In this document: positions 6,572 to 9,947 of the stretch, in pieces
How the letters are laid out: each line of letters opens with the position of its first letter
How positions within the stretch are numbered: position 1 is the first letter of the stretch
Assembly: GCF_000425165.1 (NCBI RefSeq)
Contig: NZ_KE384321.1
Coordinates: 316,235 to 380,234, forward strand
Source: Photobacterium halotolerans DSM 18316
Lineage (GTDB): Bacteria > Pseudomonadota > Gammaproteobacteria > Enterobacterales > Vibrionaceae
Direction of reading: 5' to 3'
Length of the DNA stretch: 64,000 bases
Made by a program: the position numbers and the translations under genes
Notes under the pieces: generated by a model
What the model was told of the DNA's origin: nothing
What the model saw: only the letters and a program-made list of their open reading frames with translations
Databases searched by the model: none

Positions 6572-7327
6572 ATGCTTGGCCGCAGCGTAACCTTTATTGC
6601 ATTGACATTTATTTCCGGCTGCTCAATGCTGAAAACCGAACCCAGCCCGCAGCGGGAAACGAATACACTGACTGCGATTGAAATGATGGAAACCAATGTT
6701 CATTTTCGTCTTAATCGTATGTCGCAACAAATAAACGAACAAAATGAAAACATTGCTAAGTTAGAAAAAGAGCTATCATCAATGTCAGAAGAACTGAATA
6801 AAGTTGCTTCTGTTTCATCGCCTAAACCTGAAGTCATTGTTGAGAAAAAAATAGTGCCGGTACCACAAAAAACTATTGATATCGATCCTAAAACTGCCCA
6901 TGGCAAAGTTATCCTGGGTGAAGAAGAATGGATATGGCTGGACTCAGTGCAATCCTTTTTTAAAGCACGGGTTGACACGGGTGCGACAACGTCTTCGATC
7001 AACGCACTGGATGTCCAGATCTTTGAACGGGATGGCAAACAGTGGGCCAAATTCAATCTCAGCCACAGCGGAGAAGAGAATCAGCCAGCCGACCAGATCG
7101 TGGAAGCCCCGATTGTCCGCTGGGTGAAAATCCGCCAGTCTTCCGCCGATGATACCGAACGACGCCCGGTGGTTGAGATGTGGCTTAAACTTGGCAAACT
7201 GCATGAGAAAGCACAGTTTACCCTGGCAGACCGAACGCAAATGACATACCCGGTGTTGCTTGGGCGGGAGTTCTTTAAAGACGTCGCACTGGTTGATGTC
7301 GGTAAACAATTTATCCAAGGGCGATAA
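6572..7327 (+). CDS. Retropepsin-like (DUF785 / RimB-type) lipoprotein
   Basis: A 251-residue protein starting at an ATG with a strong GGGAGTGAG Shine-Dalgarno; a longer frame begins 34 codons upstream without one. The N terminus is a lipoprotein signal (lipobox ISGC, lipidated Cys17). A polar, likely coiled-coil segment follows at about residues 37-80. The C-terminal domain, about 108-250, belongs to the putative ATP-dependent zinc protease family (DUF785, PF05618), related in fold to retropepsins: RVDTGATTSSI holds the Asp-Thr-Gly-Ala signature at 135-138, and PVLLGREF closes the domain. The family includes RimB, partner of the glutamate ligase RimK. A terminator, then a membrane transglutaminase-like gene and an ATP-grasp gene, follow. 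Protease activity is inferred only. Confidence 0.85.
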   Translation: MLGRSVTFIALTFISGCSMLKTEPSPQRETNTLTAIEMMETNVHFRLNRMSQQINEQNENIAKLEKELSSMSEELNKVASVSSPKPEVIVEKKIVPVPQKTIDIDPKTAHGKVILGEEEWIWLDSVQSFFKARVDTGATTSSINALDVQIFERDGKQWAKFNLSHSGEENQPADQIVEAPIVRWVKIRQSSADDTERRPVVEMWLKLGKLHEKAQFTLADRTQMTYPVLLGREFFKDVALVDVGKQFIQGR

Positions 7328-7340
7328 CCGTTTTCAGCTT

Positions 7341-7377
7341 GGGGCATGACTGCTTGTCATTGCCCCATTTTCGTTTT
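7341..7377 (+). terminator. Terminator or attenuator between the lipoprotein and 7TM genes
   Basis: GGGGCATGAC / GTCATTGCCCC forms a 10-bp stem with a one-base bulge and a TGCTT loop, followed by ATTTTCGTTTTC. It probably makes the lipoprotein transcript partly separate from the two downstream genes. Confidence 0.7.
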
Positions 7378-7424
7378 CATCGTTTCGTTTGCTTCAACCA
7401 ATAAAGGAAAAATTAGAGGTTGTC

Positions 7425-8930
7425 ATGACGTCAAGAATTCCGTTTTATTTTCTCATCACCTTGCTCGTCATTGCCGGGACAGCGCTCAGTCTCTATCGCC
7501 ATGATATTTACGGTGTGCCTTGGACACCAGGCGAAGAGCGCGCCTTGTGGGAACTGGAAGCCAGAGTGGAGTTTGATGCCATCGGCAAACCGGTTAAAGT
7601 ATCAATGGCCGCACCGGAATCACAGCAGGGCTTCACCCAAATCGACGAAAGTACCTCATCACCTGGCTATGGAGTCGCCCTGATTGATACCGATCAGGGA
7701 CGCCGGGCGGAATGGTCAATTCGTCAGGCATCCGGCAAACAGGTGCTGTATTACAAAACCCAGATGCTTGTCGATCCACTGGCCAGCTTTTCGACGGATA
7801 AACCCAGAGGTAAGCCTGAAGCCCCCAGCCTGGATAGCCCTCAGGAAACGGCAGCCAAAGCCATGCTGGCTCAGGCCAGAACCCTGTCGGCGGACAATCT
7901 GACGCTGACCCGGGAAATTCTGAAACAGCTCAATGACAGAAATAACCAAAATGCCTCCTTGCTGCTCAATGCGTTTCCGCGGGAAAATGTGGTGGTTTTT
8001 CTACTCTCGATGGAAGGAATAAATTCCCGCATCGTTGGTGGCTTGCAGCTCGAAGATGGCCGCCGCCGCCAAAGCATCAGCCCTATGGTGGAAGTCTGGG
8101 GCGGCGAGAAATGGCACTTATTTGACCCGCAGACGGGACAGGAAGGTAAACCTAACGATGTGCTGGTCTGGAATCAGCAAGGTCACTCCCTGCTGGATGT
8201 CATAGGTGGCCGTAACTCCAATATCAGCTTCTCAATTATTTCGCAGGATATTACTCCGCAGCAGGCAACCCGTGAAAAAGTCCAGGCTGAAGATCTGCTG
8301 AACTTCTCAATACACAGTCTGCCTATTGAAGAGCAGGCGATGTTCAAAACGATCATGCTGGTACCGATAGGCGCGTTGATCGTGGTCTTCCTCAGGGTCA
8401 TTGTAGGCCTGAAAACTTCAGGGACTTTCATGCCGGTACTGATTGCAGTGGCTTTTGTGCAGACTCAGCTGATCACCGGTGTGCTGGGTTTTCTGCTGAT
8501 CGTTGGTACAGGTTTAATCATACGCAGTTACTTATCACGGCTGAACTTGCTGCTTGTGGCCCGAATATCCGCCGTTATAGTGACGGTGATACTCATTATT
8601 TCGATCTTCACTGTGGTGGCCTTCAAGATTGGCCTGGTGGAAGGCCTGACTATCACCTTCTTCCCGATGATCATCCTGTCCTGGACGATTGAGCGTATGT
8701 CGATCCTGTGGGAAGAAGAAGGGGCAAAAGAAGTCTTTATTCAGGGTGGCGGCTCGCTGTTAACGGCCATTATAGTGTATCTGGTCATGACCAATGATCT
8801 GGTTCGTCACTTAACCTTTAACTTCATCGGACTGCAACTGATTATCATGGCAATGATCCTGATGCTGGGTAACTACACAGGCTACCGCCTGAGTGAGCTA
8901 AAACGCTTTAAGCCGTTAGCGGAGGATTAA
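7425..8930 (+). CDS. Inactive transglutaminase fused to seven transmembrane helices
   Basis: A 501-residue inner-membrane protein. One N-terminal helix (about 6-24) anchors a soluble, probably periplasmic domain (about 25-305); a block of hydrophobic helices follows at about 308-485. This is the architecture of the inactive-transglutaminase plus 7TM families (PF14400, PF14402). There is no cysteine in the whole protein, so the transglutaminase nucleophile is absent. The strand expected to carry the catalytic His reads SPMVEVWG (219-226), while the FDP Asp (234) remains. The ATG has AGAGG 5 bases upstream; an in-frame TTG 12 codons earlier is less likely. It is translated just ahead of the ATP-grasp gene. 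The domain probably binds a peptide or an acyl substrate, which is inference. Confidence 0.85.
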   Translation: MTSRIPFYFLITLLVIAGTALSLYRHDIYGVPWTPGEERALWELEARVEFDAIGKPVKVSMAAPESQQGFTQIDESTSSPGYGVALIDTDQGRRAEWSIRQASGKQVLYYKTQMLVDPLASFSTDKPRGKPEAPSLDSPQETAAKAMLAQARTLSADNLTLTREILKQLNDRNNQNASLLLNAFPRENVVVFLLSMEGINSRIVGGLQLEDGRRRQSISPMVEVWGGEKWHLFDPQTGQEGKPNDVLVWNQQGHSLLDVIGGRNSNISFSIISQDITPQQATREKVQAEDLLNFSIHSLPIEEQAMFKTIMLVPIGALIVVFLRVIVGLKTSGTFMPVLIAVAFVQTQLITGVLGFLLIVGTGLIIRSYLSRLNLLLVARISAVIVTVILIISIFTVVAFKIGLVEGLTITFFPMIILSWTIERMSILWEEEGAKEVFIQGGGSLLTAIIVYLVMTNDLVRHLTFNFIGLQLIIMAMILMLGNYTGYRLSELKRFKPLAED

Positions 8931-8933
8931 GCC

Positions 8934-9905
8934 ATGTTTTTATCGCGTTATACCACGCCATGGCGTCTGCGCGAACGCGGCATTATGGGCATGAATAAGC
9001 GCAATCACAGCTATATCGGCCGCTACAACGACCGCAGTCTGTATCCGCTTGTCGATGATAAGCTGAAAACCAAGATCATCGCCCAGCGTGCGGGAGCCAC
9101 CGTACCTGAGCTGATCGGCGTGATAAGAAGCCAGGTGCATGTCAAAGAGATTCACGACATGGTGCGAGACTGGCCGGGCTTTGTTATCAAACCGGCCCAG
9201 GGCTCTGGCGGGAAAGGCATTCTTGTCATTATCAAGCATGAAAACGGTTTATACACTAAACCGTCAGGGGCTGTGATTAATAAACAAGATGTTGAAAGAC
9301 ACATCACCAATACCCTGGCCGGACTGTTTTCGCTCGGCGGCAAAAATGATGTTGCCATGGTTGAAAACCTGATCCAGTTTGATAATGTCTTCGACGGGTT
9401 CAGCTTTGAAGGTGTACCGGATATACGCGTCATCGTGTTTAAAGGTTACCCTGTCATGGCCATGATGCGTTGTTCTACCGCTGCCTCTGACGGCAAAGCG
9501 AACCTTCACCAGGGAGCCGTCGGAGTCGGTATTGATATCGCTTCAGGCAAAGCCGTTCGTGCAGTGCAGTTTAACCTGCCGGTCGAACGCCACCCGGACA
9601 CGGAACGCTTACTCAGCGAGCTGTCCGTTCCCAACTGGCCTAAACTGCTGGAACTGGCAGCCAGTGCCTGGGAAATGACCGGACTGGGCTATCTGGGTAC
9701 TGACATGGTGCTGGATAAAATCAAAGGCCCTATGGTACTGGAGCTGAATGCCCGTCCGGGTCTTGCCATTCAGACCGCCAATGGCTGCGGATTGCTGCCG
9801 CGCCTTCATCACATCGAAAGTCTGGGCACACCATCCAAGATGCCAACTCCGGCTGAACGCGTCGCGTATGCCGCCGAGCAGTTTGGTGCTAAACCACAGT
9901 TCTGA
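8934..9905 (+). CDS. RimK-related ATP-grasp ligase (alpha-L-glutamate ligase-like)
   Basis: A 323-residue ATP-grasp enzyme of the alpha-L-glutamate ligase-related family. Visible elements are FVIKPAQGSGGKGI (Lys86 plus the glycine-rich ATP loop 88-95), DIRVIVFKG at 163-171, and the metal-binding end LGTDMVL plus LELNARPGL (Asp257, Glu270, Asn272). It should form an amide or peptide bond using ATP in the cytoplasm; the acceptor is unknown. GGAGG precedes the ATG, and only 3 bases separate it from the 7TM gene, so the two are almost certainly co-translated. A strong terminator closes the unit. Confidence 0.87.
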   Translation: MFLSRYTTPWRLRERGIMGMNKRNHSYIGRYNDRSLYPLVDDKLKTKIIAQRAGATVPELIGVIRSQVHVKEIHDMVRDWPGFVIKPAQGSGGKGILVIIKHENGLYTKPSGAVINKQDVERHITNTLAGLFSLGGKNDVAMVENLIQFDNVFDGFSFEGVPDIRVIVFKGYPVMAMMRCSTAASDGKANLHQGAVGVGIDIASGKAVRAVQFNLPVERHPDTERLLSELSVPNWPKLLELAASAWEMTGLGYLGTDMVLDKIKGPMVLELNARPGLAIQTANGCGLLPRLHHIESLGTPSKMPTPAERVAYAAEQFGAKPQF

Positions 9906-9917
9906 TCATCACAGGCA

Positions 9918-9947
9918 CCCCGGCTTCAGGCCGGGGCTTTCTTCTTC
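9918..9947 (+). terminator. Intrinsic terminator of the ATP-grasp unit
   Basis: The perfect 7-bp GC stem CCCCGGC / GCCGGGG has a TTCAG loop and is followed by CTTTCTTCTT, 12 bases past the stop. Confidence 0.8.

Follow-up and report, generated by a model that had tools for sequence, protein, structure and literature searches.

The closest described system to the genes considered here is the Rlo operon, rloABC, named and described in Pseudomonas aeruginosa in mBio in June 2025 (PMC12239564; statements drawn from it refer to the accessible part of its text). In that organism, the operon has effects on osmotic survival, on cell shape and biofilm, and on sensitivity to ampicillin. A triple rloA mutant did not succeed in growing in hypo-osmotic medium, and deletion of rloB or rloC suppressed this defect fully and the other defects partly. 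P. aeruginosa RloA needed its catalytic Asp and cleaved reporters with 8 or 10 Glu residues but not those with 6 or fewer; it cut C-terminal poly-Glu of proteins in vitro, and residues R114 and R137 were required for both poly-Glu cleavage and rescue. The same paper places the rloABC orthologues of V. cholerae under VxrB control and suggests that a locus derived from rim acquired an inactive transglutaminase; a term search of the main text of the VxrB paper (PMC4441509) gave no match. The present analysis concerns three genes in a 64,000-nucleotide stretch of the Photobacterium halotolerans DSM 18316 genome (contig NZ_KE384321.1, positions 316,235 to 380,234; hereafter the window), which an earlier note, made from the sequence alone, had put forward as a candidate for an undescribed envelope peptide-ligation system.

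The three genes lie on one strand (6572-9905), with the coordinates and order given in the earlier note, and almost certainly constitute an rloABC operon. They encode the three domains known from P. aeruginosa, in unchanged order, i.e., a secreted DTG retropepsin-like RloA, an inactive transglutaminase-seven-transmembrane (7TM) RloB and an ATP-grasp RloC. The system is thus not undescribed: the trio is the Vibrionaceae (Photobacterium-type) form of the known Rlo operon. It differs from that of P. aeruginosa in that its RloA, a lipoprotein, bears a coiled-coil-like stalk and lacks in its protease domain the disulfide Cys pair of Pseudomonas RloA, in that its proteins score below the NCBIfam RloA and RloB cut-offs, and in that the genome carries two further PF05618 genes, one of them likely dead. 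The RimB-RimK system, responsible for the cytoplasmic glutamylation of ribosomal S6, likewise combines a PF05618 protease with a RimK-like ATP-grasp enzyme, and RimK makes poly-alpha-Glu (PMC11957791, accessible part). However, RimB is located in the cytoplasm and no RloB accompanies it, whereas the window protease has a lipobox and the ligase beside it belongs to TIGR02291 and not to rimK.

The window RloA (251 aa) matched PF05618 in a Pfam profile search with E = 2.6e-45 and, together with its lipobox and DTGA motif (Table 1), agreed with the lipoprotein bearing a protease-like domain that had been proposed. The lipobox Cys is the only cysteine of the protein, which is predicted from this motif to be secreted, and residues 26-93 gave weak matches to coiled-coil families. 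Its nearest solved relatives were 9g59 (E = 2.4e-16) and 9g58 (E = 3e-16), with 2pma also found. Arg residues equivalent to R114 and R137 of P. aeruginosa RloA are retained with the same 23-residue spacing, from which the mapping was derived, and the position of K46 is occupied by Arg. The protein scored 108 bits against a cut-off of 210 for the NCBIfam model RloA3, 87 against 250 for RloA2 and 76 against 280 for RloA1. Three of the four NCBIfam models (RloA1, RloA2, RloA3 and RloB) are marked 'exception', and their names are used here for operon orthology only.

RloB matched PF14400 (E = 7.5e-57) and PF14402 (E = 4.2e-109) and comprises an N-terminal transmembrane (TM) helix (residues 5-29), a beta-sandwich followed by a dead transglutaminase-fold (about 39-276), and the 7TM domain (about 301-482). 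It has no cysteine in 501 aa, and its alignment to intact relatives showed the Cys and His positions to be lost and the Asp to be retained in HLFDPQTG, exactly the combination that had been read from the sequence before. Against the NCBIfam RloB model it reached 365 bits (cut-off 900). The AlphaFold2 model (mean predicted local distance difference test score, pLDDT, 82.6) contained the N-terminal helix, the beta-sandwich, the transglutaminase-like domain and the membrane domain; the beta-sandwich and transglutaminase-fold part would be periplasmic. In a Foldseek search against the PDB, the soluble part of the model best matched 3isr, a putative cysteine protease (E = 2.6e-9), from which it differs in the absence of the catalytic Cys and His. 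The RloB profile found nothing convincing in the PDB.

Three bases separate the rloB stop codon from the start of rloC (323 aa), as the earlier note had it. The assignment of the gene to the ATP-grasp enzymes was upheld by 529 bits against the TIGR02291 cut-off of 314; PF14397 matched with E = 3.3e-97. The motifs FVIKPAQGSGGKGI, DIRV, KANLHQG and VLELNARPG are present. The protein fell below the cut-offs of the RimK models, and the only PDB chains matched by sequence with E up to 0.01 were RimK-type glutamate ligases (5zct, 4iwx and 7qyr, E of about 1e-3).

The conservation of the neighbourhood, which had been set beforehand as a test of the proposed system, held in an even set of 299 Pseudomonadota genomes. 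PF14402 was found in 48 of them, and in all 48 a TIGR02291-family gene (above the model cut-off in 41) lay directly downstream of rloB on the same strand, so that the pairing of RloB with RloC is not due to chance. PF05618 was present in 98 of the 299 genomes. An RloA adjoining RloB was present in 40 of these 48 genomes, as established by direct comparison for 35 and by coordinates for five dead-type genomes outside the triad alignment (G190, G298, G023, G173 and G109). The eight genomes with no adjacent RloA were five Mariprofundaceae, G193, and the pair G087 and G131, in both of which RloB lacks the transglutaminase domain; G131 has a PF05618 gene further upstream, but it adjoins a rimK-like gene.

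Among the 43 RloB rows of the triad alignment (L091-L093 having been dropped as repeats of L034, L032 and L022), the Cys-His-Asp triad was kept in five, all from Mariprofundaceae, the domain was absent from two, and Cys and His were lost in 36, including the window protein. Dead RloB had an adjacent RloA in 35 of these 36 rows. The second sample comprised 369 genomes of the window's class, with the triad examined in the hits with a locus (L129-L158) and in eight hits of a third clan, and with one dead-type locus (L177) used for its neighbours only, the other dead-type hits being excluded. Here, 20 of the 22 dead loci had an adjacent RloA. Among these rows and loci, the three dead RloB with no RloA beside them were those of G193 (L034), G592 (L152) and G488 (L157), G592 having no PF05618 match anywhere in its genome.

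A separate RloB clan with the full Cys-His-Asp triad, found in Mariprofundaceae, Nitrosomonadales and other metagenome-assembled genomes, is new here. A profile of the five Mariprofundaceae proteins recovered 10 loci in named genomes (the same five, three from Gammaproteobacteria, one from Proteobacteria and one from Nitrosomonadales), and the class sample yielded eight (L129-L136). Since L099 and L132 are identical, as are L101 and L131, the distinct loci number 16, with L100 and L132 being 95% identical. Two tested members matched PF01841 (E = 6.5e-15 and 7.7e-17), a further likeness to the transglutaminase-fold cysteine proteases of the 3isr type. None of the 16 loci had RloA within the available flank, the length of which varied (the sequence of L100 ends about 100 bases downstream). 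RloC was present in 15 of the 16, and the same 15 had a downstream TPR gene, L100 ending too early. An outer-membrane-barrel-like gene came next in 12 of the 13 loci with a long enough flank, and a TPR lipoprotein gene was located upstream in several. The downstream TPR protein resembled PrsT (1.5e-59) below the NCBIfam cut-off; of two barrel-like proteins tested, one was EpsL-like (4.1e-6, also below the cut-off) and the other had no export-protein likeness, and the upstream TPR lipoprotein was YbgF/BamD-like above the cut-off. One locus (L136/L159:6475-8991) encodes an RloB-RloC fusion in a single open reading frame of 838 aa with the triad intact; the TPR gene follows and no barrel-like gene was found. 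A literature search, with coverage mostly outside subscription journals and mostly by listing, recognised no paper on the intact-triad clan, its TPR/barrel neighbourhood or the dead RloA paralogue described below.

On balance, the Rlo trio probably makes, moves and cuts an acidic chain, most likely of glutamate. In the cytoplasm, RloC would join glutamate or some other acidic amino acid into a short alpha-linked chain, the 7TM domain of RloB would carry it across the inner membrane, and the periplasmic transglutaminase-fold domain, catalytically dead in the window, would hold or present it to RloA, a presumed dimeric retropepsin on a lipoprotein stalk, for cutting. If RloA were missing, the product of RloB and RloC would damage the envelope. 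This pathway is favoured by the position of RloC nearest to RimK-type glutamate ligases, RimK itself making poly-alpha-Glu, and by the retention of the R114 and R137 equivalents in the window RloA. It is also favoured by the linkage of RloB and RloC (48/48), by the epistasis and poly-Glu cleavage reported for P. aeruginosa (PMC12239564), by the adjacency of RloA to dead RloB in both samples, and by the 16 intact-triad loci with no RloA in the flank and with TPR/barrel-like neighbours resembling exopolymer export proteins below cut-off. The sequence of a cytoplasmic ligase, a membrane step and periplasmic trimming, as drawn in the earlier note, fits the published genetics and enzymology in its logic.

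The resemblance of RloC to RimK is shared by a doubtful alternative, in which RloC attaches Glu tails to one specific protein, in the way that RimK acts on RpsF, RloB brings that protein to the membrane or retains it there, and RloA removes the tails after export. The cleavage of poly-Glu at protein C-termini in vitro also agrees with such a modification, which is an option named by the authors of the P. aeruginosa study (PMC12239564, accessible part). Nevertheless, no linked candidate substrate gene was evident in the loci whose gene lists were examined, a polytopic RloB would suit the transport of a chain better than the tagging of a protein, and the loci of the intact-triad clan have TPR and barrel-like genes as neighbours.

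The cell-shape, hypo-osmotic and ampicillin phenotypes of P. aeruginosa (PMC12239564) would also suit a modification of peptidoglycan or envelope cross-bridges, with RloC activating an amino acid or peptide, intact RloB transferring it through its transglutaminase site to a wall or lipoprotein acceptor and RloA trimming the bridge. Vesiculation of Shewanella vesiculosa rises on disruption of an inactive transglutaminase-7TM gene (PMC12096838, accessible part), and a transfer is conceivable with the Cys-His-Asp triad of one clan. We consider this improbable, as the window RloB has no transfer residue and attachment would need another enzyme, and the Pfam profile search detected no wall-binding domain in RloA or RloB.

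Returning to the chain-making pathway, the periplasmic processing enzyme would be RloB's own triad in one clan and RloA in the other. It is conceivable, though we put it forward tentatively, that RloA replaced the processing activity of RloB's own domain. An equally tentative extension is that RloB and RloC form a synthase-exporter of poly-glutamate or another acidic polymer, in which the intact triad would process or attach the chain with TPR and barrel export, and RloA would take the place of the dead site in the window's clan.

Several observations weigh against these proposals. The product of RloC is inferred, and the window proteins lie far under the NCBIfam cut-offs for RloA and RloB. 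No transporter fold was recognised in the 7TM domain, the Foldseek search against the PDB giving no match below E = 0.001 for the membrane part. A PF05618 gene was located elsewhere in the genome in six of 13 intact-triad genomes tested (none in the other seven), so that absence of RloA from the locus does not mean its absence from the cell; in G362 and G618, one such gene adjoins another, dead RloB. A third RloB clan (L176 and L178-L184, n = 8) has the 7TM domain and a dead site, with Cys lost in all eight and His at the aligned place in two, but no adjacent RloC of the TIGR02291 type. In five of its loci (L176, L178, L181, L182 and L184) RloA is directly adjacent in the opposite orientation, and a RimK-like ligase lies nearby in two (L176 and L183). 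Finally, the unrooted RloB tree of 52 chosen rows (L135 excluded, L136 trimmed to its RloB part) resolved the four kinds of RloB as four clans, on which one change explains the loss of the triad, so that the exchange of triad for RloA is unreplicated.

In the RloC tree (69 rows), the dead RloABC group occupied one side of a branch with support of 98/98. As triad loss is a single change and this group a single branch side, the association of dead RloB with RloA and of intact RloB with no RloA is suggestive, resting on one or two evolutionary events, and is not statistical proof. Adding one RimK outgroup to the RloC tree produced a very long outgroup branch with no usable root, and for this reason the intact triad is not claimed to be ancestral. 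At L079 and L080, RloB is a protein of 373-385 aa that consists of the TM domain alone and has no transglutaminase domain, preceded by a barrel-like protein and followed by RloC; L080 also has a rimB-like and rimK-like pair upstream.

PgsBCA/CapBCA, the poly-gamma-glutamate system, shares with the Rlo trio the idea of a ligase, a small membrane protein and a hydrolase, although PgsB is Mur-ligase-like and differs in this from the ATP-grasp RloC. RloB and RloC could in principle be divergent relatives of PgsBC/CapBC, in which case the 7TM domain of RloB would be a homologue of PgsC. Full and broken helices follow one another in a similar way in the AlphaFold2 models of RloB and of a CapC-family protein (mean pLDDT 79.6), and G-x4-G-x3-P occurs at the first broken helix in both. 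We regard this kinship as unlikely. HHalign comparisons of RloB with CapC (four sequences, then with 67 CapC hits, then a deeper set excluding the frame-broken L135 and the fusion L136) gave probabilities of at most 2.6%, and 0.1% in a global-mode run, and the best register differed from that suggested by the motif. The observed score of 20.5 compared with a mean of 14.3 (standard deviation 2.9, n = 120) for column-shuffled decoys, seven of the 120 scoring as high, and with 14.0 for reversed columns. None of the 16 RloB proteins scanned matched PF14102, even with E allowed up to 10, and neither the TM part of RloB nor CapC had a convincing fold match in a structure search against the PDB. The homology is therefore not established and is retained as a lead only. 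The Mariprofundaceae family also has proteins of about 1080 aa that carry two CapC-like domains (PF14102; L084-L087) and are adjoined by an apparent CHASE2-type regulator and an apparent secreted peptidase-like protein, the latter with no Pfam match. They were set aside as a bridge to Rlo, since a search of these loci found no RloA, RloB or RloC. A lipocone link was also set aside: VanZ matched three of 16 RloB proteins too weakly (best E = 0.018), and the accessible part of the lipocone paper (PMC12419801) does not mention the Rlo trio.

Two kinds of RloA were found beside dead RloB. On the window's side of the tree, RloA mostly has a Cys-free protease domain and a long spacer, often with a lipobox, and on the other side mostly a signal peptide and two cysteines. 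Of the two further PF05618 genes in the genome, the first (L004:1186-1869, contig C9; relatives L105-L124) encodes a second RloA-like protein, a lipoprotein in most cases, with a degenerate active site, and was present in 21 of the 24 genomes of the genus searched. In all 21 sequences (L104-L124), the R137 equivalent is lost and the R114 position is not Arg, and the D-T/S-G motif is lost in 20, L111 retaining DSG. Judging from these residues, the protein is likely a pseudo-protease, perhaps with a poly-Glu-binding or decoy role. The other gene (L003:1408-1917, contig C11) encodes an apparently secreted protein with DTGA and both Arg equivalents, and RloB is not adjacent to it.

Table 1. Genes and predicted RNA elements of the rlo locus in the window.
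Feature	Position	Strand	Characteristics
rloA-like gene	6572..7327	+	lipobox FISGC, coiled-coil-like stalk, retropepsin-like domain with DTGA, protease domain Cys-free
RNA hairpin in the gap from rloA to rloB, may act as attenuator or as partial terminator	7340..7367	+	predicted folding
rloB-like gene	7425..8930	+	PF14400 and PF14402; predicted TM, dead transglutaminase-fold, 7TM
rloC-like gene	8934..9905	+	RimK-related ATP-grasp ligase, TIGR02291
Terminator-like stem-loop closing the operon	9918..9936	+	8 pairs, 7 G-C, T-rich tail

The ATG at 7425 was preferred as the rloB start because most homologues among the 120 matches listed are 501 or 502 aa long; the closest named ones in that list are from Photobacterium, with identity of up to 86%. 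The end of rloA is separated from this ATG by 97 bases, and the hairpin within the gap has a predicted folding energy of -18.2 kcal/mol (z = -3.5, equalled by one of 200 shuffles). Because of this gap and the strong hairpin, rloA may be partly uncoupled from rloBC, and the arrangement suggests that their expression levels may differ. The hairpin was not among the five terminator-like sites found in the terminator scan of the region, where shuffled sequences gave 3.9, so that the stem-loop closing the operon is weak as a scan result.

The Photobacterium-type genomes add to the Rlo family a tethered variant of RloA and a conserved, likely dead RloA paralogue. The intact-triad RloB clan offers an alternative to the published idea of an inactive transglutaminase joining a rim-derived locus (PMC12239564, accessible part) and provides an enzymatic handle on the Rlo product, as its catalytic domain could be purified and assayed on poly-Glu and other acidic chains. 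If the proposed replacement is true, dead RloB with RloA and intact RloB would be alternative solutions for the handling of one polymer.

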